A stretch of DNA of 64,000 nt from Aestuariibaculum sp. M13. Lineage in GTDB: Bacteria; Bacteroidota; Bacteroidia; Flavobacteriales; Flavobacteriaceae. This document shows, piece after piece, positions 90 to 25,895 of this stretch. The stretch is taken from the NCBI RefSeq assembly GCF_024723255.1, contig NZ_JANIAC010000002.1, positions 1-64,000 on the forward strand. The letters run 5' to 3'. A program made the translations under genes and the position numbers. Within the stretch, counting starts at the first letter, position 1; each line of letters starts with the position of its first letter. The notes below the pieces were generated by a model. It saw nothing but the letters and a program-made list of their open reading frames with translations. It made no database searches and was not told the origin of the DNA.

Positions 90-127
90 TCATTCAACTA
101 TTTGTCCAGTTTTTTGTTGCAAGTCCA
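1..127 (+). mobile_element. Right end of an IS3-family insertion sequence
   Basis: The transposase tail stops at 89 and is followed by a short non-coding stretch (about 98-127) containing TTGTCCAGTTTTTTGTTGCA and ending in CA near 127. IS3 elements typically end TG...CA a few tens of bases after orfB. The left end is outside the window, so the inverted repeat cannot be confirmed and the exact boundary is an estimate. Confidence 0.5.
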
Positions 128-875: not shown

Positions 876-939
876 ATGTGTAGAATGAACCAAGTACAAA
901 AAAGCTTAAAAAGTTTAAAATTTAAAAAAAAGTAACAAA

Positions 940-1404: not shown

Positions 1405-1440
1405 AGCTATGAACGAATATTTTAAAATCAATTTTTATAC

Positions 1441-2203: not shown

Positions 2204-3415
2204 ATGAAAACTTCTAGTACTTTCGGTGTCCTATTTTGGTTAAAACTGGCCAATGTTAAAAATGGGGAAGCGCCTCTTTACGCTCGAATCACAGTAAATG
2301 GAAAACGAGCAGAATTATCCCTAAAAAAAAGAATTAATGTTACCAATTGGGATTCAAAGAAATGTAGATTTAAAGGGTTAAGTGAGGAAGCTAAACTAGT
2401 CAATAATTTCCTTAAAAGTGTAAATGGTCAATTGTTTACTATTTATCAAGATTTATGTAGGGATAAGAAATTTGTTTCTGCAAATTTGATAAAGAATAAC
2501 TATTTAGGGATTGATAATGAGAATTATCGTCTTTCTGATATTATAGAGTATCATAATACACATATGAAATCAACTTTACGTTGGGGAACTCAAAAGAATT
2601 ATTATACGACTCATAAATATTTGTCCTGGTTTTTAAAGCAAAAGAGAAAAACTGATGATATTTATTTAACAGAATTAAACTATCAATTTATAATTGATTT
2701 TGAGAGGTTTTTAAGAGGGTATCCTCAAATGGGAGGAAATACTGTAATGAAGCATCTTGAAAGGCTTCGAAAGATGATTACATTGGCTTATAAAATGGAA
2801 TGGATTGTTAAGGATCCGTTTATAAAATTTGCCATTAAATATGAAAAGAAAGAACGAGCCTTTTTAAATGCTATAGAATTGGAGGCAATTGAGAAAAAGA
2901 CATTTTCTATTCCAAGACTTGATTTGATAAAGGATCTTTTTGTTTTTGCCTGCTATACTGGCTTATCATACGGAGATGTTATGAAATTATCTAAAGATCA
3001 TATTTGTTTGGGAATTGATCGAAAATTGTGGATTCATTCGCAAAGAGAAAAAACAAAAGTACCTATTAAAATACCTTTATTGAACAAAGCCATTGAAATA
3101 ATTAAAAAGTATGAGTATCATCCTCAGACTTTTGGAAAACAAACAATTTTTCCAAACATCTCGAATCAGAAACTAAATTCTTATTTGAAAGAAATAGCAG
3201 ATGTTTGTGGGATTAAAAAGAATTTAACGTTTCATGTCGCCAGACATACTTTTGCCACTACAGTAACTTTAAATAATGGCGTACCAATTGAAACAGTGTC
3301 TAAATTGTTAGGTCATACAAAATTATCAACGACCCAGATTTATGCTAGAGTAATGGAGAGTAAAATAAGCGAGGATATTTCTTTATTGGATAGAAAATTA
3401 AATACAAAAATTTAA
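2204..3415 (+). CDS. int: Tyrosine recombinase/integrase of the conjugative element
   Basis: A 403-residue site-specific recombinase that should integrate and excise the ICE. The N-terminal third (about 1-90) is the arm-type DNA-binding domain seen in Bacteroidetes integrases (FWLKLANVKNGEAPLYARIT). A SAM-like core-binding domain follows (about 105-205), then the catalytic domain. Visible active-site residues are H344-x-x-R347, H371 and nucleophile Y380 (in QIYARV). The usual first Arg is replaced by Ser255 in YTGLSYGDV, the same unusual substitution known for IntDOT of CTnDOT. The length is normal and the frame intact. It stands alone with a repeat-rich upstream region, and the excisionase-like gene is far away at 35.9 kb. 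Confidence 0.9.
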   Translation: MKTSSTFGVLFWLKLANVKNGEAPLYARITVNGKRAELSLKKRINVTNWDSKKCRFKGLSEEAKLVNNFLKSVNGQLFTIYQDLCRDKKFVSANLIKNNYLGIDNENYRLSDIIEYHNTHMKSTLRWGTQKNYYTTHKYLSWFLKQKRKTDDIYLTELNYQFIIDFERFLRGYPQMGGNTVMKHLERLRKMITLAYKMEWIVKDPFIKFAIKYEKKERAFLNAIELEAIEKKTFSIPRLDLIKDLFVFACYTGLSYGDVMKLSKDHICLGIDRKLWIHSQREKTKVPIKIPLLNKAIEIIKKYEYHPQTFGKQTIFPNISNQKLNSYLKEIADVCGIKKNLTFHVARHTFATTVTLNNGVPIETVSKLLGHTKLSTTQIYARVMESKISEDISLLDRKLNTKI

Positions 3416-4114
3416 GTTTTATAAATTGATTGTGAAGTTAATGTTATCACACGTTCTAATGGTTTTAAGTGTATAATAAATATTAACCCCTAATTTTTTA
3501 TACCAATAATTCGTAGATTATATTGTTAAATTATAATGTCTATTAAAATTAGAATTTTAGGTTTAGTTCACGAGTGTCGATAATAATTCATTAGTCATTG
3601 ATTGTTTTTGTGTTTATATTAAAAATTAATTCTTAAATCTTCATTAGTAATTTTGAGGTTTGAATTGCTATATGTATTAAAGAGGTAGACATTAAATAAC
3701 CTTATACTTTCAATGATTAGGAATTGCATCCGGCTCATAAACACTTAGTGGTATTGAACACCTTAAATGTAAAGTGGTACAGTTTTATCACTATGTGATA
3801 ATTTTATATCGGTAAGTAATTTTGATATTAACCTTATTATTATTATTATTATTATTATAAAACAAAACCAAGTTTTTATAGTCTACAACCATCTTTAAAA
3901 TTTTGAATTTGTTATTATAATTCGATTTTCCAAAACATTTTATAGGATTAGGAGTTGGGTTAGTGAAAGTGAACTTATGGATGAAAATATTAGTGACAAA
4001 ACTTTATATGAACTTGGGTTTGTAATAATTTATGGTATATTAGTGTAGTGTTTTTCTTGTTGAAAAATAACTATTATAATTGTTTTTTAAATTAAAATTA
4101 GTAAAACCTTGTAA
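3416..4114. other. 699-bp AT-rich intergenic region
   Basis: No convincing gene. It contains a (TTA)8 microsatellite at 3834-3857 and a dyad at 3785-3801 with 7-bp arms TTATCAC/GTGATAA. A 23-codon ATG frame at 3977-4048 has no other support. The promoter of the following response regulator should lie in the last 150 bp, but no clear TAnnTTTG box was found. Confidence 0.5.
3834..3857. repeat. (TTA)8 simple sequence repeat
   Basis: Eight uninterrupted TTA units lie 257 bp before the response regulator gene. Such tracts can vary in length by slippage. It is outside any coding frame, so any effect would be on promoter spacing. Confidence 0.85.
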
Positions 4115-4792
4115 ATGAATATACCATATAATATTTTAATTATTGATGATCATCCCATGATTATTGACGCTTACAGCAGTGCTATAAATAATTCTGAACT
4201 AAGTAAAAATCGGTTTGAAATAAAAATTGAAACTGCCAGTTGCTGTAACTCTGCGATAAGTAAAATAGAAAATAAGGGTTTTAACGAAAATTTGGATTTA
4301 GTTATTTTAGATATTAGTATTCCGCCTTGTGAAGAAAAAAAAATTTTCTCAGGAGAACAATTAGGTATGTTTATTAAATCTATAGTCCCGAACTTAAAAA
4401 TTTTAGTTATCACTTCTTATGATGATTCTTTAAGAATAAATAATATTTTATCCAATTTAAATCCTGATGGCTTTTTGGTTAAAAAGGATATTTCTTCTTT
4501 AGATTTAATTTTAGCAATTGAAACAATAATATCTGGGCATCCATTTTATAGTAATACGGTTAATTTGTTGATAAAAAAGAGAATGGCTAATAAAATTATT
4601 TTAGACGAAAAGGATTTACGGATATTAATGGAGCTTTCTAATGGATCTAGAATGAAAGAATTAATTGATGTAGTCCATTTGTCTAAAGCAGGAATTGAAA
4701 AAAGAAGACGGTTGCTAAAAGTTGCATTTGAAGTGAATGGTAAAAGTGATCGAGAATTAATATTAGAGGCGAAAAAAAGAGGATTTCTATAG
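4115..4792 (+). CDS. Response regulator, NarL/LuxR-like, orphan (ICE cargo)
   Basis: A 225-residue protein with an N-terminal receiver (IDDHPMI near residue 10; phosphoacceptor Asp in VILDISIPP; Thr in VITSYDD; Lys in FLVKKD) and a C-terminal helix-turn-helix domain (about 160-225). There is an extra loop after the phosphorylation site (PPCEEKKIFSGEQLG). The C-terminus has the pattern GIEKRRRLLK...DRELI.EAKKRGF. The same loop and C-terminus occur in the regulators at 49.5 and 56.6 kb, so the three form one family. No kinase gene is adjacent. It probably controls the neighbouring transport and peptide genes, by phosphorelay from a kinase elsewhere. Confidence 0.85.
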   Translation: MNIPYNILIIDDHPMIIDAYSSAINNSELSKNRFEIKIETASCCNSAISKIENKGFNENLDLVILDISIPPCEEKKIFSGEQLGMFIKSIVPNLKILVITSYDDSLRINNILSNLNPDGFLVKKDISSLDLILAIETIISGHPFYSNTVNLLIKKRMANKIILDEKDLRILMELSNGSRMKELIDVVHLSKAGIEKRRRLLKVAFEVNGKSDRELILEAKKRGFL

Positions 4793-4851
4793 ATCTTCTA
4801 CAAATGATTATTTCCATTATGGAAAAATAATTAAATTATTTTTTAAACTTT

Positions 4852-7800
4852 TTAACCAGAGTTTTTTAGTGTAAAAATAGGTAAGTAAAAAAGAATACCA
4901 ATTAAAGAAAAAATAAGACCTCCAATTGTTCCAACCCCCAAAGCAAACCAAAATATTTGATTTTGCCCATCCTTTACAAAAGGAATGAACCCTAAAATGG
5001 TCGATGTAATTGTTAGGGTTATTGGGTATATTTTTTGTTTAAAAGCCTCTAAATATAGGAATATTTTATTTTGATTTGGGAAGTCCTTTTTAAGTTTATT
5101 AAACCCATAGATTATAAAAATAGACGCATTTACCGTAATGCCGCTCAATAAGACAAAGCTTGCAAGTCCTCCTTGATCAAAATTAAAATCAAATAAATAA
5201 AAAGTTAAAAACACCCCTATAAATGATATTGGAATTACACTTATAATAATAAATGGTTGTTTAAAGCTTTCAAAAATTATGGAACATATAAAATAAATAA
5301 TAAGTAATATTAAGAAAAATAAAAAAGTATAATTATTATTTTTATCTTGATTCAAAAACCATCGCCTCGTGTCCGCTTTTTCAAAAGAGTATCCTAAAGG
5401 CAATCTTGGTTTTAGTTCTTTTAGTTTCTCATCCAAAAATTTGGAACCACTTAATTCAGCTCCAGCATACTGAAACTCTACTAGCCTAACATATTCTTGA
5501 TTTTCTTTATAGATATTTTCTTCTTCTCTTTTTTTTGTGATATTAGAAATATCTTTTAAAGCTATTGGAGTATTCAAATTATCTATTGGAGTGTTTTTTA
5601 TAAGCCAAATATCAAAAGTTTTTGATTGTTCAGATTCCAAACGTATCGGTATATATTTTCCTTGGATGTTAATTGAAATATCCTGATGTTTTGATAAAGT
5701 CATTTGCTGTAATTCATCCATAATTTTTAAAGGAGTTTTATTCGCTAGTGCCAAACGTTCTTTATCAATATTAAATTGGTAATTATAAGCTGGTTTTCTT
5801 GACCAGTTACTATTTTCTCTAACCAATACTTTTTGTATTCTAGGATGTTGCTCCAAGACAATTTTTAAACTATCAGCCCAATTATTTAAATTATCATAAT
5901 TATAGCCTTTAGCTTTAACGGAGAAATTAATAATTTCGTTAGCATCATTTCCATAATTAAATCCATTACCAACACCATTTATCTCCCAATCCATACCTCC
6001 AAAATCAAGAGCTTTTCTAATTAACCGAGATTTTAACATAAAAGGAAATGAAGACTTTGAGTACTCTTCTAAAAAAGTAATTTCTAAGCGAGCATAATCT
6101 CCACTATATATATATGTAGTATATTGTTTTATCTCTTTGAATTGTTTTAAATAATTTTCTATTTCTAAAAAGACAGTATTCATTTGATGTACAGTTGCCC
6201 CTTTATCCATTGCAGAAGTAACATATAATTTTGTTTCTTCATTTCTATTATACGATGCGTTTTCGAATACATAATAATTAAATAGTCGAAATGAGCCACC
6301 TAAATACCTGTCTAAATAAGGTCTGATATTATCTTTGTACCATTCATTCCCTAAAGTGTTATTGTATGCTTTTTCATACCAACTATAGTTTTTTTCTAAC
6401 TTTTGAGGCAACATAAAAATGGGTAAACCAAATAATAGAATAATGAATAAAATAACTAGTTTTTTATATCTTAATTCAATAAAAATAATACTTGCATAAA
6501 TATCATAAAATTTCTGTTTGAGTATTTTACTCCAATGTTTTTCTTTTTTTATGGGAAGTTTTATTTTTTCCAAAAGAGCAGGTATTAAAAATAAAGCTAT
6601 AAGTAATGAAACTGATAGATTAATAGTGATAACCAAGGCAAAATCTATCAAATTCACTTTATATTTATCATCTAAAAAATAAACAACAATTAAAGCACAG
6701 CTAGTGGTTAAAGTAGAAGCTAAAATTGGTGCAAATACCGATTTATTATTCTGATGACTAATATGATCTATCATTACAATAATATTGTCTATAATCAGAC
6801 CTAAAGAGATAGTTATTCCTGCAAGAGAATATAGTTGTATTTCGACATTAAAAGCAAAATAGAATAAAAAGGCTATACTAATATTAGCAAGTAGGCTAAT
6901 AAGTGTAATTATTAAAAAATTTAATCTTTTACTAATTAATAGGATAAACAGTAACAATATAGTAATGGTATAAAATGATCTCTCATATATTTTATCTAAT
7001 TCCTGTTTCAGATATTCGGTGCTATCATAGGTTTTAATAATGGTATAGCCTTGAGGCAAACTTTTATCAATTTTCTCTAAAGCTCTATTAATCTCATTAG
7101 TAAGTGTAAGAGTGTTAGCTTGTTTTGAGGCGTATAGATTTAGTGTGATAGAGTTATTTCCATTTATTCTATAATAATTTTGTGTTTCTTGTTCTTGTTC
7201 TTTTATGGTGGTTAATTCATTTAGATATACTATTCTATTTCCGATTTTTGTTATAGGAATGGGGAATTGTAAATCTTCATTTTTAGGCTGAATATAGAGA
7301 GATATATAATTCCCATTAAAATTAATAGAACTTAAAGTTTCTTTGCTAAAATTATTTTTTATGGCTCTAATAATATCTAGCTTAGTGAGTTTTAATTTTT
7401 TTAAAATAGAATTATTATACGTTAAAACATATTCCTTGGGTGTTGCTCCATAAACTTGGGTTTTATCTATACCGTGAATTGCACCAATTATTGGTTCAAT
7501 TTGAGTAATAACTGTTTCCTTAATATCAAAAGGTGATGCACTGCTATTTATGCTATATGATAAAAAAGCTTTAGTATCTTCCTCATTTGGCCTATTAATA
7601 ACTAATGTTGGGTAGCTAACTTGTTTTGGTAATTTTTTGTAAAGTTGTCTAATTATTGTTGCTGTTTCAAAACGAGAGATATCAACATTAGTATATTTGT
7701 CAAATTCTAATACTATATAACCTTTGCTTTTAGAGCTTTTAGAGCTTATTTTTTTTAAACCTTTCAAGGTTGAAAACCCAGCTTCTAATAAAGATGTAAC

Positions 7801-7992
7801 ATCACGCTCTATTATTTGTGGAGAAGTGTTAGCCCAATTATAATTTACTGTTATAGAGGGAAGACTTCGACTTGGGTTTAATTTTACCGATAATTGAGGT
7901 GTTATAAAAATACCTATCACCGATAGGATAATAAACACAATAAATATTTTAAACTTTGAAACTTTCAAATTGTCCATTTTACATGTAAACAT
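4852..7992 (-). CDS. RND-family efflux/export permease (AcrB type)
   Basis: A 1046-residue inner-membrane proton-driven pump subunit. It has the RND layout: TM1 at the N-terminus, a large periplasmic loop (about 40-330), six TM helices, a second periplasmic loop (about 540-860) and the last TM block. The proton-relay site in TM4 reads IID(402)NIIVMID. The ATG at 7992 gives MFTCK; a second ATG five codons later (7977) may be the true start, since family members usually begin close to TM1. It is transcribed away from the peptide gene at 8136 and has no adaptor of its own, so it may share the adaptor and TolC protein encoded at 10.7-16.1 kb. It is clearly diverged from the other permease at 11.7 kb. 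The substrate is unknown. Confidence 0.9.
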   Translation of the reverse strand: MFTCKMDNLKVSKFKIFIVFIILSVIGIFITPQLSVKLNPSRSLPSITVNYNWANTSPQIIERDVTSLLEAGFSTLKGLKKISSKSSKSKGYIVLEFDKYTNVDISRFETATIIRQLYKKLPKQVSYPTLVINRPNEEDTKAFLSYSINSSASPFDIKETVITQIEPIIGAIHGIDKTQVYGATPKEYVLTYNNSILKKLKLTKLDIIRAIKNNFSKETLSSINFNGNYISLYIQPKNEDLQFPIPITKIGNRIVYLNELTTIKEQEQETQNYYRINGNNSITLNLYASKQANTLTLTNEINRALEKIDKSLPQGYTIIKTYDSTEYLKQELDKIYERSFYTITILLLFILLISKRLNFLIITLISLLANISIAFLFYFAFNVEIQLYSLAGITISLGLIIDNIIVMIDHISHQNNKSVFAPILASTLTTSCALIVVYFLDDKYKVNLIDFALVITINLSVSLLIALFLIPALLEKIKLPIKKEKHWSKILKQKFYDIYASIIFIELRYKKLVILFIILLFGLPIFMLPQKLEKNYSWYEKAYNNTLGNEWYKDNIRPYLDRYLGGSFRLFNYYVFENASYNRNEETKLYVTSAMDKGATVHQMNTVFLEIENYLKQFKEIKQYTTYIYSGDYARLEITFLEEYSKSSFPFMLKSRLIRKALDFGGMDWEINGVGNGFNYGNDANEIINFSVKAKGYNYDNLNNWADSLKIVLEQHPRIQKVLVRENSNWSRKPAYNYQFNIDKERLALANKTPLKIMDELQQMTLSKHQDISINIQGKYIPIRLESEQSKTFDIWLIKNTPIDNLNTPIALKDISNITKKREEENIYKENQEYVRLVEFQYAGAELSGSKFLDEKLKELKPRLPLGYSFEKADTRRWFLNQDKNNNYTFLFFLILLIIYFICSIIFESFKQPFIIISVIPISFIGVFLTFYLFDFNFDQGGLASFVLLSGITVNASIFIIYGFNKLKKDFPNQNKIFLYLEAFKQKIYPITLTITSTILGFIPFVKDGQNQIFWFALGVGTIGGLIFSLIGILFYLPIFTLKNSG

Positions 7993-8061
7993 ATAAAAAA
8001 TATAAAGTGAACTTACAGATTATTTTTCAAGAAAGTGAAATGTAAGTGTTTTGAATACTTA

Positions 8062-8089
8062 TTGTAGGTAAATAAGTCTATTATCTTTG
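8062..8089 (+). promoter_or_regulatory. Bacteroidetes-type promoter for the peptide gene
   Basis: TTG at 8062-8064 followed, after 17 bp, by TATCTTTG at 8082-8089, which matches the Bacteroidetes consensus TTTG/TTG...TAnnTTTG. It lies 46 bp before the ATG at 8136. It is the best promoter match found in the window. Confidence 0.65.
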
Positions 8090-8135
8090 TTTGAATTAAT
8101 TACTTTTAAAAAATATTAACATAAAATTTTTTATT

Positions 8136-8321
8136 ATGAAAAAAGCAATTTTAGGGCTAGCTTTCCTAGCGACAATTTTTTTTACAGCTACTGAAGCTTT
8201 TGAGCCTATCGATGTTCAAGCAGGTGAATCACGTCATGATGACGGGGAATGGTGTCCTAGTTCTGGAAGTTCTTGTGTTGTTATTACAGTTCCTAAGAAA
8301 GAGGAGGATGCACAACCTTAA
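8136..8321 (+). CDS. Small exported peptide precursor with CP-x5-C motif (61 aa)
   Basis: The protein has a hydrophobic Sec-type leader (residues 3-18), a spacer with PIDVQAGE (24-31), and a short C-terminal part with two cysteines, C40 and C47, in CPSSGSSC. The mature part would be only about 30-40 residues with one possible disulfide. It has a strong promoter, a hairpin after it, and is followed by a lipoprotein, a thiol-disulfide-like protein, a signal peptidase I and a complete RND tripartite system. This looks like the substrate or signal of that cassette. The leader plus QAGE region is loosely like the NVEALA-type small peptides of Bacteroidetes, a comparison from memory. The function is not known. 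The other ICE peptide at 22.6 kb has the same CP-x5-C spacing. Confidence 0.75.
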   Translation: MKKAILGLAFLATIFFTATEAFEPIDVQAGESRHDDGEWCPSSGSSCVVITVPKKEEDAQP

Positions 8322-8340
8322 ATTCTTAAAGTTCATTTCT

Positions 8341-8390
8341 AGATGTTATACCAGTAAAAAGGTGCAACATCTTTTTTAATTTATAACATC
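8341..8390 (+). terminator. Hairpin after the peptide gene, with an alternative overlapping pairing
   Basis: AGATGTT (8341-8347) pairs with AACATCT (8366-8372) and is followed by a run of T, like a rho-independent terminator. The same left arm, GATGTTATA (8342-8350), can instead pair with TATAACATC (8382-8390), just before the ATG at 8396. The two pairings exclude each other. Partial termination here would give much peptide mRNA and less mRNA for the downstream export genes. Confidence 0.55.
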
Positions 8391-8395
8391 ACATT

Positions 8396-9562
8396 ATGGT
8401 TAAGTTGACTACTGCAGTTATATGCTTTTTTTTTCTTTTTAGTTGTAACGATTTAAAGCCTAATCAAATAAACAATTGTTATTACGATGAAAGTTTATCA
8501 AATAAAAAAATAACTATTATAAAAGAGCTTAATATTTCTATTGATAAAACTAATAATTTCATGAGCACACAAACTTTGGTTAATGGGGACTCATTGATCA
8601 GAGCAAATTACTTTAATATTGCAATTGATATTTTTAGTGTTAAGGAAAGAAAAAAGATAATGACATATAATTTTAAAAATGAGGGGCCTAATAGAATTAT
8701 AAATTTCGGGGGTTCTGGGATTGTTGAAATGAAAGAAAACTCATTTCTTATAGGAAGTCTTTTAGGTGAAATTTATATAACTTATAAGGATTCAATTCTT
8801 TCAAAACATAATTTGTCCGATTTAGATATATTTAAAGACAGAGAGTATAGACTTTACGGAATTAATAGTACGAAACCAATAAAAATAGATGATGATATCT
8901 TTTTTTATCGAGTACCTGAATATTTACAACAGGATAAAGGATATTATAGTGAGAAACTCTTAGTTAAATATAATTTGAAAAATAAATCTCTTGATGAGCT
9001 TAATGTATTGTATCCAAAGGAATATCATTCTGGATTATGGAGCTTTGCCCATATACACCCTTCATTCACAAAAAATAGCGAAAATAAAATAATATTTTCG
9101 TTTCCAATAAATTCTCATTTATATGAATACGATATAAAAACAGATTCAATGGTAACGGTCGATAAATGTGTAAAAAGCAAATTTGATAATTTTCCATTAA
9201 AACCTCTAAAATCAACCTCTGTAGATTTTTATGAAGAAAACAAATATATTAAAGGACAAATAAGGTATCTAAGTATTACTTATGATAAATATAAAAAGTT
9301 GTATTATAGAATGATTGCTTTACCTGTGGAAAATGATGACGATTTAATAAGTAGAGATAAGGACTTTTTGGTTTCTCCAATTGTTCTAATGGTTTTAGAT
9401 AGTGATTTTAACGTTTTAGCGGAAAAAAAGTTAAAAGGAGGGATGTTTAATTATAAAGATTATTTTGTTAATGAAGAAGGGTTTTGGTTATCTAAAAATA
9501 ATCCTAAAAACCCTAATTTTGATGAAGATAAATTGTCTTTTTCATTGTTTAATCTAAAATAA
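8396..9562 (+). CDS. DUF4221-like lipoprotein, probable beta-propeller
   Basis: A 388-residue protein with a lipoprotein signal peptide ending FLFSC17, so probably anchored in the outer or inner membrane facing the periplasm. The rest is a beta-rich repeat protein with the segment NEGPNRI (about residues 95-101). This resembles the EGPNxI motif of the DUF4221 and 6-bladed-propeller lipoproteins that are common next to small peptide genes in Bacteroidetes. It follows the peptide gene by 74 bp and precedes the thioredoxin-fold lipoprotein by 4 bp. It may bind or present the peptide, but no binding residues can be named. Confidence 0.7.
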   Translation: MVKLTTAVICFFFLFSCNDLKPNQINNCYYDESLSNKKITIIKELNISIDKTNNFMSTQTLVNGDSLIRANYFNIAIDIFSVKERKKIMTYNFKNEGPNRIINFGGSGIVEMKENSFLIGSLLGEIYITYKDSILSKHNLSDLDIFKDREYRLYGINSTKPIKIDDDIFFYRVPEYLQQDKGYYSEKLLVKYNLKNKSLDELNVLYPKEYHSGLWSFAHIHPSFTKNSENKIIFSFPINSHLYEYDIKTDSMVTVDKCVKSKFDNFPLKPLKSTSVDFYEENKYIKGQIRYLSITYDKYKKLYYRMIALPVENDDDLISRDKDFLVSPIVLMVLDSDFNVLAEKKLKGGMFNYKDYFVNEEGFWLSKNNPKNPNFDEDKLSFSLFNLK

Positions 9563-9566
9563 ATAA

Positions 9567-10061
9567 ATGAAAAGAATAGTTTATAAAATATATTTTATTT
9601 TAATGATTTGTTCTATATTGTTGAGTTGTAAAAATAAAGTTGAAGGTATTAATCCTAATAAAATTGAATTTAACAATAAGGTTTATAGTTATTTAAAGAA
9701 AGATTTGAATGCTAATGTTGATAAAAATCAAATGTTTATTATTCTAACTACTTATTCTTGTTCAGGGTGTACCAAAACTGCAGTAAATTACTTGAAAAAA
9801 AGTATAAAAAAGCAGAACAAAATTTCATTAATAGCTGTTGGGGATACAAAGAAAGAGACATTAAACTTGGTCGAAACCTTAGGTGATAGATATCAAATTT
9901 ATTATGATTTTAAGGGAATCACATTTGATAAACTAAATCTTCATTCTAATGCCGTCATTGAAATTCAGAATAAAAAAGATTTAATTTTTTATACTTTTGG
10001 TGTAAATGAAAATATAGAATTAATGCTTACTACAATTGATAAATACCTAGATGAAAACTAA
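9567..10061 (+). CDS. Thioredoxin-fold lipoprotein with CSGC motif
   Basis: A 164-residue protein with a lipoprotein signal peptide (LLSC21) and a C65-S-G-C68 motif after a beta strand (MFIILTTYSCSGC), the position of the CxxC site in thioredoxin-like proteins. It lacks the WCxPC context of classical TlpA, so it is a diverged member. A role in forming or shuffling the disulfide of the neighbouring CP-x5-C peptide, or reducing a partner, is plausible. Its end overlaps the start of the signal peptidase gene by 11 bp, so the two are probably translationally coupled. Confidence 0.72.
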   Translation: MKRIVYKIYFILMICSILLSCKNKVEGINPNKIEFNNKVYSYLKKDLNANVDKNQMFIILTTYSCSGCTKTAVNYLKKSIKKQNKISLIAVGDTKKETLNLVETLGDRYQIYYDFKGITFDKLNLHSNAVIEIQNKKDLIFYTFGVNENIELMLTTIDKYLDEN

Positions 10062-10665
10062 CAAATATTATTTAATATTTTTTATAATCTTATTAACCAT
10101 TCTTTTATTCACATGTTTTTTTTCAATATTAAAAGTGCATTCAAGTTCAATGTCAAATACTATAAATGAAGGTGATTATGCATTATTATGTAAAACAAGG
10201 CAAATAGAAAAAAAGGATATTGTTGTTTTTAATTTATTAGACAATAAATATTTGAAAAGATGTGTGGCAATGCCTGGAGATACCATTACGATAAATGTAA
10301 ATGGGGTGAAAGTTAATAGTGATTTCGTCAATGAAAGTTATATAAATAAAACCAAAGGGATAATTCCATTTTTGGCAAATAAAACTTATTTTATGCAAGA
10401 CTATATAGTTCCTTTTAAGGGATTTACTTCAATAATAACACCTCTTTTCTATAAAAAATATGCTCATTTAATAAATGAACTAGAAAATAGTGAATTTAAT
10501 GTTATTGGTGAAAAATATTTTTTAGGCGGAAAAGAAATTAAAGCATATACCTTTCAAGAAGATTGTTTTTATCTTTTAGGAGACAATAGAGATGTGTCAA
10601 AAGATTCAAGATATTTTGGAGCTATTCCCGAAAATAAAATTTTTGGGAAATTAATTTTTAATTAA
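10051..10665 (+). CDS. lepB: Signal peptidase I (S26), dedicated copy
   Basis: A 204-residue inner-membrane serine protease that removes signal peptides on the periplasmic face. There is one N-terminal TM helix (about 7-27), then box B with catalytic Ser33 in SSSM, catalytic Lys69 in YLKRCVAMPGD, and box E GDNRDVSKDSRYFG near the C-terminus. All catalytic residues are present. The protein is short for a flavobacterial housekeeping LepB, which often has two domains and is over 400 residues, so this looks like a dedicated enzyme of the cassette, perhaps for the 61-residue peptide. It overlaps the genes on both sides (11 bp before, 1 bp after). Confidence 0.88.
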   Translation: MKTNKYYLIFFIILLTILLFTCFFSILKVHSSSMSNTINEGDYALLCKTRQIEKKDIVVFNLLDNKYLKRCVAMPGDTITINVNGVKVNSDFVNESYINKTKGIIPFLANKTYFMQDYIVPFKGFTSIITPLFYKKYAHLINELENSEFNVIGEKYFLGGKEIKAYTFQEDCFYLLGDNRDVSKDSRYFGAIPENKIFGKLIFN

Positions 10666-11744
10666 TGAAAAACTTATATTTTATCACACTAATTTTACTT
10701 ATTTTATCTTGTAAAGATAAGAGTATTAATTCTGTAAAACTTTCTAATAATAAGCTTTTGAATAACAATAAAAGAAACTTAAACGTAAGTATAATTAAAA
10801 AAGTTAATTTTCAAAAGCAAATAATAGCTAACGGTAAGGTAGTAGCCCAAAATAAAAGTGAATTACGTTTTAAAACCAGTGAAAGGATTGCTTCTATAAC
10901 AGTTAAAAATGGACAAAAAATTGACCAAGGAAAAACAATAGCATTGTTAGATAATTCACTATTAGAAAACCAACTTAACAGAACCAAAATTGAATTTGAT
11001 AAAGCTGATAAAATACTGCAAGAAGAAAAGATTAATTTTGGATTGGGCGATTTACCAAACGAAAGTATTGAGCCAAAAATTTTAAAGAATCTAAAAATTA
11101 AAAGTGGCTATTTTGAAGCGCAAAACGCTGTAGAGAAAGCTCAATTGCTTTATAATCAAACTATATTAAAATCACCTTTTACAGGGGTAGTTGCTAATAT
11201 AAATACAAAAGCTGGTGATTATATTAGTTCAAGTGATGTGTTTTGCACTGTTATTGGACAACAACAATTTGAAGTAGTATTTTCAGTTTTAGAGAGTGAG
11301 TTATCTTTTATTAAAGAAAAACAAGATGTAACTATTAATTTGTTTGTTGATGAAAGCAAAACTTTTAAAGGTTTAATTACAGAAATTAATCCTTTAGTAG
11401 ATGAAAATGGTTTAATTCAAATAAAGGCTAAAATAATTAAAAAAGATAATATATTGTTTGATGGTATGAATGTTAAAGTGATTGTTAATAAGTCTTTAGA
11501 AGGTGTTACCGTCATCCCAAAGGAAGCATTGGTTTTGCGCTCTAACAAAGAAGTTGTTTTTACAATTGAAAATGGTTTGGCTAAATGGAATTATGTTGAA
11601 ATATTGGATGAAAACAGTAATAGCTATGCCATAAAAAAAGGTTTAAAGTTTGGAGATACCATTATAGTATCTGGAAACATGAATTTATCACACGATACAA
11701 AAGTAAATCCTTTATTTGGATCACAACAGGATGATATAAATTAA
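10665..11744 (+). CDS. RND periplasmic adaptor (HlyD/AcrA family), lipoprotein
   Basis: A 359-residue membrane-fusion protein. It has a lipoprotein signal peptide (LLILSC16), a biotinyl/lipoyl-like half-motif (about 75-110: SERIASITVKNGQKIDQGK), a short coiled-coil hairpin (about 110-165), the second lipoyl half (LKSPFTGVVANINTKAGDYI), then beta-barrel and membrane-proximal domains. It links the permease to the TolC-like channel. Its start overlaps the lepB stop and it is 3 bp before the permease gene, so lepB, adaptor, permease and channel form one operon. Confidence 0.92.
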   Translation: MKNLYFITLILLILSCKDKSINSVKLSNNKLLNNNKRNLNVSIIKKVNFQKQIIANGKVVAQNKSELRFKTSERIASITVKNGQKIDQGKTIALLDNSLLENQLNRTKIEFDKADKILQEEKINFGLGDLPNESIEPKILKNLKIKSGYFEAQNAVEKAQLLYNQTILKSPFTGVVANINTKAGDYISSSDVFCTVIGQQQFEVVFSVLESELSFIKEKQDVTINLFVDESKTFKGLITEINPLVDENGLIQIKAKIIKKDNILFDGMNVKVIVNKSLEGVTVIPKEALVLRSNKEVVFTIENGLAKWNYVEILDENSNSYAIKKGLKFGDTIIVSGNMNLSHDTKVNPLFGSQQDDIN

Positions 11745-11747
11745 ATA

Positions 11748-14700
11748 ATGGTAAAGTATTTAATTAATAGGCCAGTTGCTGTATTTATGGTAACTTTTGC
11801 TTTTTTATTGCTTGGAATTGTTGCTTCTCTGCGTATACCAACTTCTTTAATGCCTGATATTGCAATTCCAGAAATTACTGTTCAATTAACTTACCCAAAT
11901 AATACAACTCGTGAGTTAGAAACTAACGTAGTAAGGCCATTACGTAATCAACTCTTACAAGTTACAAATTTAAAAGATATTGAAACTGAAACTAGAGATG
12001 GATTTGCTACTTTAAAATTATTATTTGAGTATGGAACTAACACAGATTATGCTTTTATAGAAACCAATGAAAAAGTAGATGCTTCATTAAATTATTTACC
12101 GCGTGATTTAGATAGACCAAAAGTTATAAAAGCGTCTGCTACTGATATTCCTATTTTAAATCTTGTAATTTCCTTAAAAGAAGATTATAGTGATGAACGT
12201 TTTCTAGAATTAAGTGAGTTTGTTGAAACTGTCATAAAAAAGCGTATAGAACAATTACCAGATATTGCTTTGGCTGATATAAGTGGACAATCTCAATCTG
12301 AAATTATAGTAACTCCTGATAAAAATAAAATTCAAAGTTTAGGAATCGATAATGATGAACTTGTTAAAGCTATAAAGCAAAATAATTTTGAATTAGGAAA
12401 CTTAATTGTTCAAAATGGAATTTATCAATATAATTTTCAGTTTTCCAATCCGCTTCACACTAAAAAAGATATTGAAAATATTTATTTAAACATCCACGAT
12501 AAATTATTTCAACTAAAAGATTTAGCGGAAGTATCCTTAAGACCGCAATTAGATAGAGGCTTGGTTTATAATAATTCAAATAGAGCTATTGTTCTAGCAA
12601 TAGTAAAGCAAGCTGATGCAAGAGTGTACGACTTAAAAGAAGCTTTAGATAGGTTAACGCTATCTCTTCAAAAGGATTATCCAAATCTCGTATTTTCAAC
12701 CAATCAAGACCAATCACAATTATTAAAACTATCTATTGATAACTTGAAGTCGAGTTTATGGATAGGAAGTATTTTAGCCATATTAATTATGTTTTTTTTT
12801 CTGAAAGACATAAAATCGCCTTTAATCATTGCTATTAGTATACCAGTTTCTTTAATAGTTAGTCTATTTCTTATGTATCTTTTTGGATTGTCTGTTAATA
12901 TTATTTCCCTATCAGGTCTAATACTAGGTGTTGGTATGATGATAGACAATGCTATTATTGTTATTGATAATATTACCCAAAAATTAGAATCTGGTTTTAA
13001 TCTATTTGATGCTTGTGTCCAAGGTACAAATGAAATTATTACACCATTAATAAGTTCTGTATTAACTACTTGTTCTGTTTTCTTGCCCTTAATCTTTTTA
13101 AGTGGAATTGTTGGTGCTCTATTTTATGATCAAGCGGTTGCAGTTTCAATTGGATTAGGTTCTTCATTATTGGTTTCTATTATGGTTATTCCTGTCATTT
13201 TCAAAAAGTTAAAAAATAAGACCTTTAAGTTTGAAAAATGGTTGCGATTTAATATTAAGACACAAAATATTGATTTTTGGTATGAGAAAGGGTATCATTT
13301 TTTCTTTGGAAAAAAACTGATAGTATATGGAATTTCAATAGTAAGTGTCATTATTACTCTTGTTCTTTTCAAAACTATGGAATATTCGCAATTACCAGAA
13401 ATTGATCAAAATGAAACCATCGCAACAATTGATTGGAATGAAAATATTAATGTAATTGAAAACCAAAATCGTATTCATTCTACTTTAAAAGATGTTCCTA
13501 ATATTAAAACTCAGTTTTATCAAGTTGGAGAACAACAATTTTTATTGCAACGAGAGAATACTAGAAGTTTTTCTGAAGCAGTAGTGTATTTAAGATCGAA
13601 TTCTATTTCTGAACTTGAAACTATAAAGGAAAATATTCAAGAAGATATTAAAAAAAAATATCCGAATAGCAATATTAATTTTGAAGCACCTAAGAGTATT
13701 TTTCAATATATTTTTCGTACAAATAAAAGTAAACTCATAGCACAGATACATTCTAATTCCTCTTTGGAAGTTCCTAAAGAAGATGAACTCGCTAGTATTA
13801 ACGCGCTACTAGTAGATAAAACTAGTTCTGAAGTTCCACTAAAACAAACTGCTTCAATTCAAATTTTACACGAAAGTGTTTTACTTTATGATGTTAATTA
13901 TGATGACTTAATTACTGAGCTTAAAACAGCTTTCGATCTAAGCTTTATTGATAACTTAAAAAATGCTCAAAAGTATATTCCTATCAAACTAAATTATGAA
14001 GTTATTGATTTTGAAAATATAGTAAATGGACTATTTGTTAAGAATAAAAGTGATGATTTGATCCCGGTTAAAAATTTAATTAAAGTAAATACAGTACAAC
14101 AATATAAGACTATTACAGCTAACAGAGGTGGTGAATATTTAGGTTTTGATATTTATACACAGAATAACATTGATTCTGAAATAGTTAGTATTCAAAATGC
14201 ATTTCATAAAAGCAAAAATTATAATGTTCGCTTTGGTGGTGATTGGTTAGAGTTAAAGGAAATCAACAGCCAACTGATAGTTGTTGTTATTGTAGCTTTG
14301 TTATTACTATATTTTATTATGGTAGCTCAGTTTGAATCCTTTTGGCAACCTTTAATTATTTTATTTGAAATACCAATTGATATTGGGGGAGCTTTATTAT
14401 TGCTTTGGTTATTTGGTGGTACAATAAATGTAATGGCAGCGATTGGAATTGTTGTAATGAGTGGTGTGATTATAAACGATAGTATTTTAAAAATTCACAC
14501 GATTAATTTATTGCGAAAACGAGGGGTAGGAGTTGAAGATGCTATTAAACAAGCGGGTAAATTGCGTTTAAAACCCATTTTAATGACATCTTTAACAACC
14601 ATACTTGCTCTAACACCATTTTTATTTATGACAGGTTTAGGTGCTCAATTACAAAAGCCATTAGCTTTAACAGTTATTGGAGGTATGATTATTGGGACAT

Positions 14701-14756
14701 TTATTAGTTTATATTTTATACCCTTAATGTATTATACATTTATTAAAAAAAAGTAA
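11748..14756 (+). CDS. RND-family efflux/export permease (HAE1/AcrB type)
   Basis: A 1002-residue inner-membrane pump. It has the standard RND layout of two periplasmic loops and 12 TM helices, with the TM4 proton-relay motif MIDNAIIVIDN (D400-N401). The N-terminus RPVAVFMVTFAFLLLGIVA is typical of TM1. It is part of a complete tripartite set with the adaptor before it and the TolC-like protein after it. Placed downstream of peptide, oxidoreductase and signal peptidase genes, it may export the processed peptide rather than a drug, but the substrate cannot be read from the sequence. Confidence 0.93.
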   Translation: MVKYLINRPVAVFMVTFAFLLLGIVASLRIPTSLMPDIAIPEITVQLTYPNNTTRELETNVVRPLRNQLLQVTNLKDIETETRDGFATLKLLFEYGTNTDYAFIETNEKVDASLNYLPRDLDRPKVIKASATDIPILNLVISLKEDYSDERFLELSEFVETVIKKRIEQLPDIALADISGQSQSEIIVTPDKNKIQSLGIDNDELVKAIKQNNFELGNLIVQNGIYQYNFQFSNPLHTKKDIENIYLNIHDKLFQLKDLAEVSLRPQLDRGLVYNNSNRAIVLAIVKQADARVYDLKEALDRLTLSLQKDYPNLVFSTNQDQSQLLKLSIDNLKSSLWIGSILAILIMFFFLKDIKSPLIIAISIPVSLIVSLFLMYLFGLSVNIISLSGLILGVGMMIDNAIIVIDNITQKLESGFNLFDACVQGTNEIITPLISSVLTTCSVFLPLIFLSGIVGALFYDQAVAVSIGLGSSLLVSIMVIPVIFKKLKNKTFKFEKWLRFNIKTQNIDFWYEKGYHFFFGKKLIVYGISIVSVIITLVLFKTMEYSQLPEIDQNETIATIDWNENINVIENQNRIHSTLKDVPNIKTQFYQVGEQQFLLQRENTRSFSEAVVYLRSNSISELETIKENIQEDIKKKYPNSNINFEAPKSIFQYIFRTNKSKLIAQIHSNSSLEVPKEDELASINALLVDKTSSEVPLKQTASIQILHESVLLYDVNYDDLITELKTAFDLSFIDNLKNAQKYIPIKLNYEVIDFENIVNGLFVKNKSDDLIPVKNLIKVNTVQQYKTITANRGGEYLGFDIYTQNNIDSEIVSIQNAFHKSKNYNVRFGGDWLELKEINSQLIVVVIVALLLLYFIMVAQFESFWQPLIILFEIPIDIGGALLLLWLFGGTINVMAAIGIVVMSGVIINDSILKIHTINLLRKRGVGVEDAIKQAGKLRLKPILMTSLTTILALTPFLFMTGLGAQLQKPLALTVIGGMIIGTFISLYFIPLMYYTFIKKK

Positions 14757-14759
14757 TTG

Positions 14760-16097
14760 ATGAGGATTAAAATTTTCAACTTATTAATCTTTTATTGCAT
14801 TTCATTGTCCGCACAAGAAAAGTGGTCCTTGGAAAAGTGTATTAATTATGCAAAAGTGCACAACATTGATATACAAAAACAACAATTTCAGAATGAAATT
14901 AAAGAAGAAGATATTGTTATAGCTAAAGGGAATTACTTTCCTGATGGTAATTTTAATGCTTCTCAAGGTTTCAGTTTAGGAAATTCGTTTAATGTTTCTA
15001 CAGGTGTGGGACAATTAGAAAGTCGATTTAATAGCTTTAGTTTGTCATCTTCTGTGAATATTTTTAATGGTTTTAGTAATAGATACAAATTTCAACAAGC
15101 CAAATTGTATGCAGAAAAGGGAAATATTGATTTAGAAAAATTACTTTTAGATTTGTCATTAAATATTTCTAATAAGTATTTACAAGTTCTTTTTTGTAAA
15201 GAAATTCTGTCTGTTGCCAAAGAGCAAGAAGCTATAAGTCAAAAAGAAGTTAGTAGATTATCGAATTTATTTAATGTAGGGTTAAAATCCAAAAGCGAAT
15301 TATTAGAAATGGAAGCTACTTTCTCTAAAGATAAAAAAGAAAGATTAATTGCTGAAAACAATATAAGGAATAGCCTCATTGAATTGCAAGAATTGTTAGA
15401 TGTGAAACCGATAGATAATTTTCATATTGAACCTATTGATATTAGTGGTTTTAAGAATGATTTTAAGTTGGTGAAAGAAGATGATATTTATAATAAAGCA
15501 TTAAAAATAAATCCGCTAATAAAATCTACTCAATTAAGTGAAAATATTAACGAGAAGATTATTAGTATAAATAAAGCCAATTTTTATCCTAAATTTGATT
15601 TTTATTATTCATATAGCAGTAGTTATTATCATGTTCAGGGAAGAGAAGATGTTGTGTTCAATCAACAAACTAATCAATTTGAGAACAATGGTTTTTTAGT
15701 TCAGCTAGACAATAATAGAACACATTATCTAGGATTTGCTTTAACAGTTCCTTTATTTAATAAATTTCAAACTCGTTCAAATATTGATAAATCAAAAATT
15801 GAATTAAAAATCATTAAAGTAGAACTTGAAAATCAAAAGAAAGAACTTAAAAACAAAATTGGTATAGCTTATAATGATGTTCGTACGGCCAGAGCTACTC
15901 TGGAAGCTTCTGAGTCCGCTTTTGTATTCCAGGAAGAAGTCTTTTCTAGTGCCCAAAACAAATATGAAGAAGGTATCATTCCTTTGCACGAATTTTTGGA
16001 ATGTAAATCTAATTATATTAAAACACAATCAGGACTTATAAATGCTAAATATGAATACTTATTTAAAATTAAAGTTTTAGAATATTATTATAATTAA
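14760..16097 (+). CDS. TolC-family outer membrane channel
   Basis: A 445-residue outer membrane efflux protein. It has a signal peptide (about 1-19, ending LSAQE), then two OEP repeats with long alpha-helical coiled-coil segments and amphipathic strands (SSSVNIFNGFSN; LGFALTVPLFNKFQTRSNID). I use the ATG at 14760 rather than the TTG three bases before. It starts 3 bp after the permease stop and closes the operon. It should form the exit duct for the RND pump, and possibly also for the second permease at 4.9-8.0 kb, which has no channel of its own. Confidence 0.92.
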   Translation: MRIKIFNLLIFYCISLSAQEKWSLEKCINYAKVHNIDIQKQQFQNEIKEEDIVIAKGNYFPDGNFNASQGFSLGNSFNVSTGVGQLESRFNSFSLSSSVNIFNGFSNRYKFQQAKLYAEKGNIDLEKLLLDLSLNISNKYLQVLFCKEILSVAKEQEAISQKEVSRLSNLFNVGLKSKSELLEMEATFSKDKKERLIAENNIRNSLIELQELLDVKPIDNFHIEPIDISGFKNDFKLVKEDDIYNKALKINPLIKSTQLSENINEKIISINKANFYPKFDFYYSYSSSYYHVQGREDVVFNQQTNQFENNGFLVQLDNNRTHYLGFALTVPLFNKFQTRSNIDKSKIELKIIKVELENQKKELKNKIGIAYNDVRTARATLEASESAFVFQEEVFSSAQNKYEEGIIPLHEFLECKSNYIKTQSGLINAKYEYLFKIKVLEYYYN

Positions 16098-16227
16098 GAT
16101 TAAAATTCTTACAATAGGAACTTGTGAGTATGTGAGATTTTGCTGATTTCTTATGTATAATAGTCAGAAAATAAAGTGTAGGTTAAAGGCATTATTTTTT
16201 ACAGATAATTTACAAGAGTCAAGAGTA

Positions 16228-16731
16228 TTAATGATTTATAATTTCATAGTTTGAGCAATGATTATATTTCGAACTATGATTAATTCCTAAATTCAATTGT
16301 GTTAAACTTTTTTTAAGAACTTTTGCTAATTCTTTTGTAGGTTCTATTTGAATACTATCATTGTCAATCTTAAAAGCAAAATATTCAATTTTTCCAGAGC
16401 TATCAAAATATACTCTAGTAAATATAGTAATGTTAGTCTTTGAAACATTCCATTTAATTTTTGCAGCGCTTATACTTTCACTAATTGCATTTTGAAAATT
16501 TTGGATTTTTTTGACTTTGACACTATCTTTTATTGGGTTAAATGTTTTGGGGTTTAGTAGTTTTGGGTATAAACTGTCTAAGTTTTGCCTATAAAAAGCA
16601 TCATTAAGTTTAGTGTCAAGTACTTTATTTATCAGAACTAGTTCTGAATGATCTTCAATTTGCGCTTTACAACTTATATTTGTCAATAATATGGTGATGA
16701 TTATTAATATTGTTTTAAAAAAAGATCTCAT
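16228..16731 (-). CDS. Hypothetical lipoprotein (167 aa)
   Basis: A lipoprotein signal peptide ends LTNISC21. The mature part is mixed alpha/beta with a segment FTRVYFDSSGKIEYFAFKI that resembles the C-terminal strand-turn-strand of small TonB-C-like or uncharacterised Bacteroidetes proteins, but I cannot assign a family. It lies convergently after the TolC-like gene, on the opposite strand, and seems to be a single-gene unit. No link to the export operon is visible. Confidence 0.65.
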   Translation of the reverse strand: MRSFFKTILIIITILLTNISCKAQIEDHSELVLINKVLDTKLNDAFYRQNLDSLYPKLLNPKTFNPIKDSVKVKKIQNFQNAISESISAAKIKWNVSKTNITIFTRVYFDSSGKIEYFAFKIDNDSIQIEPTKELAKVLKKSLTQLNLGINHSSKYNHCSNYEIINH

Positions 16732-17757
16732 TTTCTTTCCTTTTTAAAATTTAATTGTACCGAATATATTAAAATATTTACATCTACATAAATTTTACAT
16801 TAAAGAATGGTTTATTGGCTACATATACTACTGTATTTATTATAATTTACCGGACATAGTGATAAGAAAATAGGTTTGTTAGATTTTATAATTGCAATTA
16901 TCTGAAGAAACTCTAAATAATATGTCTTAGAATTTTAATAAATGCAGTTGAGGTAATTTATGTCAAGGGCTATGAATGCCAGTCTGCTAAACTTGGAAGT
17001 TAAATTCTTTAAGCCTATTTCCCTTATAAAAAAATTGTTGCTATTTCTTCGATTGCTAATTCCATATTTTTATGACATTAGTGCAAAAAACTGAAATATA
17101 GAACTATTTACGGAGGAGAAAATTTAGCATACCTAAATTTCATGTAAACCTTATTTAATGGTACTTCATATCAAGAACTGGACTAGATCATTATATCCGC
17201 TGTGGAGGGTTCTCGTTTAACGTCCTATTTAGTTTAACAGCACTTGGTACTTTTCGTCTTCCCCAAATTCATTATACACTTGTTGTAAAAAGGATAGAAT
17301 ACTATATAAGATTTCTTTGGGAGTTGAAGAGTGTCTCATGATATTTAGGTATTGGTTATTAGGTTTTAAGTTAAAAAGAAATATTTAGACTTATTTATTC
17401 TCGCTTCGAGATGTTTTAAATTTCAAGTCTTCATTTTAATTCGTTCTTCTCGGCTGTGGCCGTTATCACCATTTTTTGTTAGCAAAGTAATAACATTTAG
17501 AAGTTAATGGGACTGCATAACCAGGCTCGCTTCACTCCCTCTTTTTATAAGTCCCTTATTAATTCTAAATATTCAAAAATTACAGCATCAAAAAAAGGTA
17601 ACAGCTCATAGCTCTATGGGAAGTAAATCAAATTATTAAAGTCATGAAATCATATCAAAACATACCAAATACAAAGCGAAATAAATGAAAATCAAAAAAG
17701 GAAAACGCTTCAGATATATTAAGTAAATCAATTATTAATCATTTAAATATTTTTATC
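16732..17757. other. 1-kb stretch between cargo and mobilisation genes, mostly non-coding
   Basis: No gene of normal length. One short minus-strand frame at 17229-17339 reads like protein and is listed separately. The last part has small hairpins such as CGGC-TGTG-GCCG near 17451-17462. This is probably the junction between the integrase/cargo side and the conserved mobilisation module of the ICE. Confidence 0.45.
17229..17339 (-). CDS. Possible small protein or gene remnant (36 aa)
   Basis: An ATG-initiated frame on the minus strand of 36 codons, beginning MRHSSTPKEILYS and ending EFGEDEKYQVLLN. It has an amphipathic helical look and protein-like composition (few AT-driven Lys/Asn/Ile runs), unlike the surrounding non-coding DNA. 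It may be a true small ICE protein or the remnant of a longer one. No family is recognised. Confidence 0.3.
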   Translation of the reverse strand: MRHSSTPKEILYSILSFLQQVYNEFGEDEKYQVLLN

Positions 17758-24477: not shown

Positions 24478-24492
24478 CCTGAATATTTTTTA

Positions 24493-25893: not shown

Positions 25894-25895
25894 AA

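Follow-up and report, generated by a model that had tools for sequence, protein, structure and literature searches.

Small cysteine peptides encoded beside beta-propeller lipoproteins and paired RND permeases in Aestuariibaculum sp. M13 and other Bacteroidota

Genes of the cassette

The stretch of DNA considered in this study, which I will call the window, comprises the first 64,000 nucleotides of contig NZ_JANIAC010000002.1 from Aestuariibaculum sp. M13 (assembly GCF_024723255.1). Within it lies a cassette of genes encoding a small exported peptide with cysteines, two lipoproteins, a signal peptidase, and an exporter of the resistance-nodulation-division (RND) type. A first-pass annotation, made from the letters of the sequence, had proposed that these genes form an undescribed system for the maturation and export of the peptide. 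The genes it named were all found, in the same order and at the same positions, by a list of open reading frames (ORFs) and a family search: nine ORFs, making up a tight operon on the plus strand (8136-16097), a permease gene divergent from it, and a response regulator gene considered in the last section. The features of the cassette are as follows.

4852-7992, minus strand: RND permease 2 (RND2 clade), 1046 residues, ACR_tran, divergent from the operon; the best marker of the system
8062-8089, plus strand: promoter-like site TTG-N17-TATCTTTG, upstream of the peptide gene (loose consensus)
8136-8321, plus strand: precursor peptide, 61 residues, Sec-type leader and C-x6-C core (ORF and alignment to the peptides of loci L065, L069, and L058)
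8342-8390, plus strand: hairpin with a run of T between the peptide and propeller genes (by folding, z of -4.6 against shuffles)
8396-9562, plus strand: DUF4221 beta-propeller lipoprotein, 388 residues, lipobox Cys17 (Pfam, alignment, fold model)
9567-10061, plus strand: thioredoxin-fold lipoprotein, 164 residues, CSGC motif with Cys65 and Cys68 (alignment, fold model, profile match)
10051-10665, plus strand: short signal peptidase I (Peptidase_S26), 204 residues, Ser33/Lys69 and GDNR-SKDSR box (Pfam E-value 2e-32, motif check)
10665-11744, plus strand: RND periplasmic adaptor (MFP, HlyD), 359 residues, lipoprotein-like start (Pfam)
11748-14756, plus strand: RND permease 1 (RND1 clade), 1002 residues, ACR_tran (Pfam E-value 4.9e-168; tree)
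14757-16097, plus strand: TolC-like outer-membrane channel, 446 residues, OEP (Pfam E-value 5.9e-54)

The seven genes of the operon are separated, from the peptide to TolC, by 74, 4, -11, -1, 3, and 0 bases.

The propeller, thioredoxin-fold protein, and signal peptidase

The lipoprotein downstream from the peptide, earlier called propeller-like, matches DUF4221 (PF13970) with an E-value of 9.5e-20 and 71.8 bits (cut-off 23.4). Its AlphaFold model is a beta-propeller (pLDDT 85.5), the best match of which in PDB is 3s9j, the DUF4221 protein BVU_1028 (TM-scores of 0.75/0.80), and its lipobox cysteine is kept in 16 of 16 aligned relatives.

The CSGC protein matches no Pfam family above cut-off. 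The thioredoxin fold claimed for it is borne out by its AlphaFold model (pLDDT 85.6), by a profile match to ResA-type chains, and by the top Foldseek matches, CcmG, ResA, and TlpA, though with modest TM-scores of about 0.4 to 0.5. Both fold models were built on shallow alignments, of 22 and 16 rows. The two cysteines are invariant in all 22 relatives aligned (from 32 listed). What the protein shares with ResA, CcmG, and TlpA is the fold and the CxxC motif; it differs from them in identity (7 to 18% in the 50 best fold matches), in being a lipoprotein, and in lacking the proline before the fourth strand that is a hallmark of this type of thiol-disulfide oxidoreductase. Most of its own relatives have that proline. 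The window protein has asparagine, so that the direction of its redox activity cannot be read from the sequence, and this tells against the function I propose below. Used alone as a search anchor, the protein found matches in 2 of 119 genomes, including that of the window, and was dropped for this purpose.

The signal peptidase has the intact dyad attributed to it, Ser33 (within SSSM) and Lys69, and a GDN...SxDSR box. There are three S26 loci in the genome: a long gene on contig C5, which I take to be the housekeeping signal peptidase, the gene in the window, and one in a second cassette described below. Both genes other than the long one belong, then, to cassettes of this kind.

The two permeases

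To define relatives of the cassette, 395 genomes of the phylum were searched with RND2, and 39 gave a match with an E-value of 1e-100 or better. From 20 of the RND2 places, surrounding stretches of at most 20 kb were fetched, and to these were added named loci, the best 80 of 535 relatives. These named loci include representatives of Maribacter, Capnocytophaga, Hyunsoonleella, Parapedobacter, Parabacteroides, and Bacteroides, as well as Phocaeicola vulgatus ATCC 8482. For comparisons, the case set consisted of 14 of the 16 fetched windows of the close clade (L050 and L053 were left out, as their genomes were absent from the control search), and the controls were 40 hand-picked windows around other ACR_tran genes in the same 12 genomes.

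A tree was constructed from 81 permease sequences, among them five of the 80 named loci and 29 control tips, from those of the 40 control windows in which an ORF between 850 and 1299 residues long was present. The RND2 proteins of 28 loci group in a single clade (support 1.0) that excludes all 29 control tips. RND1 proteins form a second clade that mirrors the first (25 tips, support 0.96) and holds one control tip, L212, which is an RND1-type gene from an RND2-positive genome, lying on a 13-kb stretch that ends at the end of a contig; it was kept in the control counts. Distances amongst RND1 and amongst RND2 sequences across 24 loci are correlated with r = 0.968, a value reached in none of 2000 permutations, and each of the two cassettes in the window genome keeps its own matching pair. 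Judged from these trees, RND1 and RND2 have been passed on together.

Co-inheritance of two dissimilar permeases, served by a single adaptor and channel, is a feature that the cassette has in common with pumps of the MdtABC type. In MdtABC-TolC, two unlike RND permeases share one adaptor and work as a heterotrimer (PMC8277102), and the best PDB match of RND1 is in fact MdtB (269 bits). RND2, in contrast, resembles known pumps only distantly (136 bits for AcrB, and 107 bits against the MdtC model, whose cut-off is 1774), and the pump of the window, unlike MdtABC, is linked to peptide genes.

The families of the permeases, the adaptor, and TolC are those of efflux systems, and one might suppose that the cassette is a pump for drugs, bile, or host peptides, with the peptide and propeller serving as stress-sensing or regulatory parts. 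I regard this as distinctly unlikely. The clades of the two permeases exclude 28 of the 29 control pumps, which come from the same genomes, and both permeases fall below the cut-off of the NCBIfam drug pump model (HAE-1; 502 bits for RND1 and 287 for RND2, cut-off 1250) and of the metal pump model (HME, CusA/CzcA; 310 and 134 bits, cut-off 701), although these scores argue only weakly against efflux, since the control pumps were not scanned. An efflux pump also leaves unexplained the signal peptidase and the repeated modules of peptide, propeller, and thioredoxin-fold protein to be described. A more specific possibility is metal handling in the manner of CusCFBA, in which the peptide would be a periplasmic metallochaperone feeding a metal pump. 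A small cysteine peptide does adjoin the RND genes, and the CusA/CzcA model does find RND1, but at a score under the metal pump cut-off; furthermore, the number and spacing of cysteines vary widely among the peptides, and that of the window matches no family. I consider metal handling very improbable.

Association of peptides and propellers with RND2

Comparative data support the view that the cassette represents a real and conserved system. The combination that the first-pass annotation proposed to look for in other Bacteroidota does recur there, with the peptide co-occurring with the propeller, the CxxC lipoprotein, S26, and RND genes. A propeller gene is present in 12 of the 14 RND2 windows, a thioredoxin-fold gene in seven, an S26 gene in five, and a propeller with a peptide upstream in eight, all of these being absent from the 40 control windows. 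It should be borne in mind that the profiles of the parts were built from case loci, which favors finding the parts in case loci.

The link between peptide and propeller is seen as well when individual genes are considered. Within 96 RND2-anchored loci, a cysteine peptide lies no more than 500 bp upstream of 27 of 69 propeller genes, whereas among other genes the count is 23 of 714 (p = 4e-18). Across all 111 loci the counts are 39 of 104 and 27 of 851, and the link stands when L216, L217, and L230 (fetched because of their NVEALA matches) are removed and when all of L216 to L230 are. A small CxxC protein follows the propeller gene in 18 of 121 cases, as compared to 13 of 789 for other genes.

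At the level of whole genomes, DUF4221 exceeds its cut-off in nine of 198 genomes, eight of which are RND2-positive. Propellers of PF17170 (E-value of 0.001 or better, five candidates scored per genome) occur in at least 36 of the 39 RND2-positive genomes and at least 95 of the 356 others. Among the PF17170 places listed for RND2-positive genomes, 23 of 74 are within 25 kb of RND2, where about one would be expected. Taken together, these comparisons of gene neighborhoods show parts that belong together, with units of peptide and propeller, at times with the thioredoxin-fold protein, repeated beside a single exporter.

Several observations weigh against this conclusion or limit it. The peptide finder is loose, giving at least one ORF in all 14 case windows and in 31 of 40 controls. 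For this reason, only position beside a propeller is informative, and the mere presence of a peptide-like ORF in a window was rejected as evidence. One pump (G351:C4:114045-117089), known to be 9 kb distant from an NVEALA match and for that reason omitted at first from the hand-picked controls, has both an NVEALA peptide and a propeller at a distance of 8 to 9 kb. Since this propeller is within reach, the control figure for propellers becomes 1 of 41 when the pump is restored. S26 and thioredoxin-fold genes are absent from many relatives, and their presence in so limited a share of the RND2 windows makes them frequent modules rather than invariant parts. Among the 40 named loci with full flanks (from the best 80 of 535), at least two RND genes are present in 34, an adaptor in 31, a channel in 33, a propeller in 24, a match to a ligase-like profile in 17, S26 in 16, and a thioredoxin-fold gene in 11, but six lack a second RND gene and nine an adaptor within 10 kb, and six are without propeller, S26, ligase-like, and thioredoxin-fold genes alike. 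Finally, 51 of the 74 listed PF17170 places in RND2-positive genomes are far from RND2, and propellers are present in the 95 or more RND2-negative genomes already mentioned; consequently propellers could have functions of a different kind, or could work with the pump remotely.

The stretch around the G351 pump (L230, G351:C4:112750-125840) is of some interest in itself, showing an ordinary-looking RND pump near a propeller and an NVEALA peptide, and no RND2.

NVEALA peptides and distant relatives

The NVEALA family (PF14055) exceeds its cut-off in at least two of the 395 genomes (15 candidates scored per genome), both of them RND2-positive. There are at least 11 matches, eight lying on the same contig as RND2 at a distance of 13 to 27 kb and three on other contigs. 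In Parapedobacter defluvii (L114), a single strand encodes an NVEALA peptide, a propeller, S26, a Wzy_C protein with tetratricopeptide repeats (Wzy_C/TPR), an adaptor, RND1, a channel, and RND2. Because an NVEALA peptide heads this RND2-type run of genes, I join NVEALA peptides and the cassette of the window in one system.

The likeness extends to details. NVEALA peptides, which accompany six-bladed propellers (PF17170, PF15869, PF13970), are short Sec-type precursors with a leader ending in A-x-A and a core with cysteines, and in L114 the propeller lipoprotein is encoded directly downstream, in a run of genes that also includes S26, the adaptor, both RND permeases, and the channel. The window differs in its peptide, which has a shorter leader and falls outside PF14055, in the absence of a Wzy_C/TPR gene from the cassette, and in the divergent orientation of RND2. 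With its exported cysteine peptide directly before a propeller, its pair of RND1- and RND2-clade permeases, its adaptor, and its channel, it fits an NVEALA-type cassette as delineated here.

Pairs of peptide and propeller genes stand apart from RND2 in L225, L226, and L229, as if a module did not need to adjoin the pump in order to use it. Seven stretches were examined around weaker relatives of RND2 (27 to 30% identity) in other classes of the phylum. Six of them (L054, L055, L056, L057, L058, and L060) have propellers, each with a short cysteine peptide within 400 bases; the seventh, L059, has pumps and adaptor only. The peptide of L058 aligns with that of the window across the leader and cysteine loop, though L058 was used to build the model concerned. 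Two of these distant cassettes also encode membrane proteins of the MauE family (L055, 278-736; L058, 4123-4638), possibly a second redox part.

Ligase-like proteins and the second cassette

Wzy_C/TPR proteins, which resemble O-antigen ligases, are frequent in relatives of the cassette but not universal, and no match to one is found in positions 1-18000 of the window. Examples are the Wzy_C membrane proteins of L006 (168-2081) and L120 (2580-4307), the latter beside a transglutaminase-core protein (1144-2655). Both types of protein might serve in modification or anchoring of the peptide. The ligase-like profile used above (TM637) mixes the Wzy_C/TPR proteins with a family of lipoproteins (Transglut_core in L120, without a Pfam match in the second cassette).

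The window genome has a second cassette (C3:105184-127586, covered by L010 and L007) that is fuller than the first, with all its genes on one strand. It encodes a ligase-profile lipoprotein with no Pfam match, a Wzy_C/TPR protein (lacking in the window cassette), a propeller, a thioredoxin-fold protein, an adaptor, RND1, and a channel, along with a 67-residue protein resembling a helix-turn-helix (HTH), three peptides, two more propeller-thioredoxin pairs, S26, and RND2.

These proteins raise the possibility that the peptides remain attached to the cell, bound to the propeller or joined by Wzy_C to glycan, and that the RND pair carries outward either the peptides or a lipid or glycan partner. 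In keeping with this, Wzy_C/TPR genes lie within the operons of L006, L114, L120, and L125 as well as the second cassette, the mixed profile of ligase-like proteins and lipoproteins reaches the 17 of 40 named loci counted above, and the propellers are themselves lipoproteins. The cassette in the window, however, dispenses with a ligase-like gene, and a TolC channel argues for release. Such an envelope or surface role seems to me unlikely.

The window cassette sits between a gene for a tyrosine integrase (2204-3415) and conjugation genes (DUF5712, coupling protein, TraG, TraM, and DUF4138; 19651-45228) and is therefore probably cargo of a conjugative element. No tRNA is found in the window that might have marked an attachment site. 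Since cargo collects in such places, it might be asked whether the cassette is a chance gathering of unrelated genes. That is hardly credible, considering that the same set of genes lies beside RND2 in other genomes, that the trees of the two permeases mirror each other, and that the genome has a second cassette.

The peptide and its expression

The peptide of the window matches no Pfam family at E-values up to 0.1, and the cut-off for NVEALA is not reached. A Phr-type model gave an E-value of 0.047, below its cut-off, and was not used. From alignment, the leader is likely cut after Ala29 (VQA) or Ala21 (TEA). With the disulfide formed, the calculated monoisotopic mass would be 3426.51 for a cut after Ala29 and 4325.95 for one after Ala21, with 2.016 more in the reduced form. 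Peptides with a similar leader and C-x6-C pair directly precede the propeller in L065 and L069, making it unlikely that the ORF in the window arose by chance.

The first-pass annotation described a clear promoter before the peptide gene. There is indeed a site, TTG-N17-TATCTTTG, beginning 74 bases 5' of the gene and agreeing with the Bacteroidota-type promoter consensus, but the loose pattern has four other matches within positions 3400-17000, and so its presence argues only weakly for a promoter. A scan for sigma-70 promoters at the peptide gave three sites, all on the opposite strand and at chance level. The sole terminator-like site from the same scan lies inside the peptide gene; the hairpin after the gene came from folding.

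That hairpin is a common property of the modules. The z-score is -2.5 or lower in 24 of 29 peptide-propeller gaps (median -4.2), as compared to 29 of 90 control gaps (median -1.2; p = 1e-6), in a test of gaps of 35 to 200 bases with 40 shuffles per gap, the controls being 90 of the 156 same-strand gaps in control loci. Without the three loci fetched for their NVEALA matches (L216, L217, and L230), the count is 19 of 23. A separate set of 11 hand-picked gaps has z of -3 or lower in seven, -1.9 and -2.3 in two, and no hairpin in two, one of which is only 18 bases long. The two runs differ for L071 and L074, where the ends of the gaps were set differently. The simplest reading is that the hairpin may be a partial terminator or a processing site. 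Hairpins also follow the precursor gene in lantibiotic operons.

Peptides encoded within the same locus tend to be more alike in the leader than in the core, with median identities of 0.41 and 0.31 over 31 pairs from eight loci (p = 6e-4). The strongest pairs have identities of 1.00 vs 0.29 (L113), 0.93 vs 0.23 (L216), and 0.93 vs 0.24 (L217), as would be expected of a common machine for processing and export whose cargo changes. Against this, the difference is modest overall and is reversed in L007, in several pairs of L051, and in one each of L216 and L217. The pattern is clear solely in the single pairs of L113, L216, and L217, and the window cassette holds but one peptide.

Small HTH-like proteins, 66 to 73 residues long and recognized by eye, are encoded near peptide genes (C3:117439-117642; L088, 3190-3390; L051, 13363-13584) and could be regulators of the cassettes.

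A proposed route of peptide maturation and export

I think it likely that the cassette is a dedicated line for maturation and export of a small secreted peptide. I infer every step of transport, cutting, and redox chemistry, and the activity of the product as well, from gene content and protein families. The 61-residue precursor, to judge from its leader, would cross the inner membrane by Sec. The signal peptidase of the cassette, perhaps along with the housekeeping enzyme, would cut it at an A-x-A site to leave a core of about 32 (or 40) residues. The thioredoxin-fold lipoprotein would make, break, or proofread the bond between the two cysteines of the C-x6-C pair. Once mature, the peptide would be expelled from the periplasm through one adaptor, one TolC, and two RND permeases, the latter probably as a mixed trimer. 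The propeller lipoprotein, specific to its peptide module, may hold the peptide, capture it at the surface, or protect the producer, and the hairpin after the peptide gene could allow more precursor to be made than machinery. The most likely targets of the peptide would be competing or sister bacteria. Antagonism coupled with protection is more likely than signaling, given that the cores change and that the propellers are specific to modules.

Whether such a route, Sec followed by periplasmic maturation through a dedicated signal peptidase and thiol lipoprotein and then by a two-permease RND exporter, extends across the phylum, with exchangeable modules of peptide, propeller, and thioredoxin-fold protein that share a single exporter and are carried in part by conjugative elements, and including the NVEALA peptides of gut Bacteroidales, is in my judgment an evenly balanced question. 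If it does, then there would be a new class of secreted cysteine peptides in Bacteroidota, gut genera included, and a role for DUF4221 and DUF5128 propellers and for NVEALA peptides.

The route would differ from what is familiar. PMC8277102 describes ribosomal peptides of Gram-negative bacteria leaving the cell mainly through dedicated ABC transporters that bypass Sec, RND pumps as mostly exporters of drugs, metals, and siderophores, and RND trimers of mixed composition, MdtBC for example, as rare. The cassette resembles the bacteriocin and microcin exporters treated there in having a leader and core with a probable dedicated protease and exporter, but it would use Sec and a signal peptidase in place of a C39 peptidase, and RND in place of ABC. 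A ribosomally synthesized and post-translationally modified peptide of Chryseobacterium, a lipidated macrocycle modified by an MNIO enzyme and made through the lipoprotein pathway (PMC12636315), is likewise a Bacteroidota peptide that uses steps of an export pathway; in contrast, no MNIO enzyme is among the genes named for the window cassette and its relatives.

Tables of PMC10434189 include, from Bacteroides thetaiotaomicron, an O-antigen ligase (BT0662), a six-bladed beta-propeller (BT0664), a signal peptidase I (BT0667), and an RND adaptor (BT0669), with p-values of 0.11 to 0.35. From their names and numbering, BT0662 to BT0669 look like part of a cassette of this type, which would make the system accessible in a laboratory strain (VPI-5482).

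The families involved (NVEALA, DUF4221, DUF5128, S26, and RND) are already known by name. In full texts under open license, I found no description of their combination and no mention of NVEALA or DUF4221. What holds of the original claim of an undescribed system is thus the co-occurrence of the genes, the separation of the permeases from control pumps, and the lack of a description in those texts; the maturation and export it spoke of come from gene content, and two of the enzymes that would carry out maturation, S26 and the thioredoxin-fold protein, are found in a minority and in half of the 14 RND2 windows, respectively.

Neighboring genes

One further gene had been placed at the edge of the cassette.

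4115-4792, plus strand: orphan response regulator receiver protein, 225 residues (family search); judged not to be a member of the system

It is convergent with the RND2 gene, with 59 bases between the two, and was rejected as a part of the cassette: a relative is found in one of 118 related loci, and there are two paralogues elsewhere in the window. The three response regulators (4115-4792, 49507-50202, and 56596-57270) are 39 to 42% identical. One of them follows a TPR histidine kinase, and one adjoins genes that, read by eye, resemble those of pseudopilins and secretins (50383-56584).

Two other regions of the window merit mention. Genes resembling SusC and SusD (read by eye) lie together with a gene for an AhpC/TSA-domain protein at 22927-29189 and may be further cargo of the element. 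At 58408-62835 is a gene for a 1475-residue protein that appears by eye to have RHS-like repeats, with a small ORF downstream, possibly a polymorphic secreted protein.

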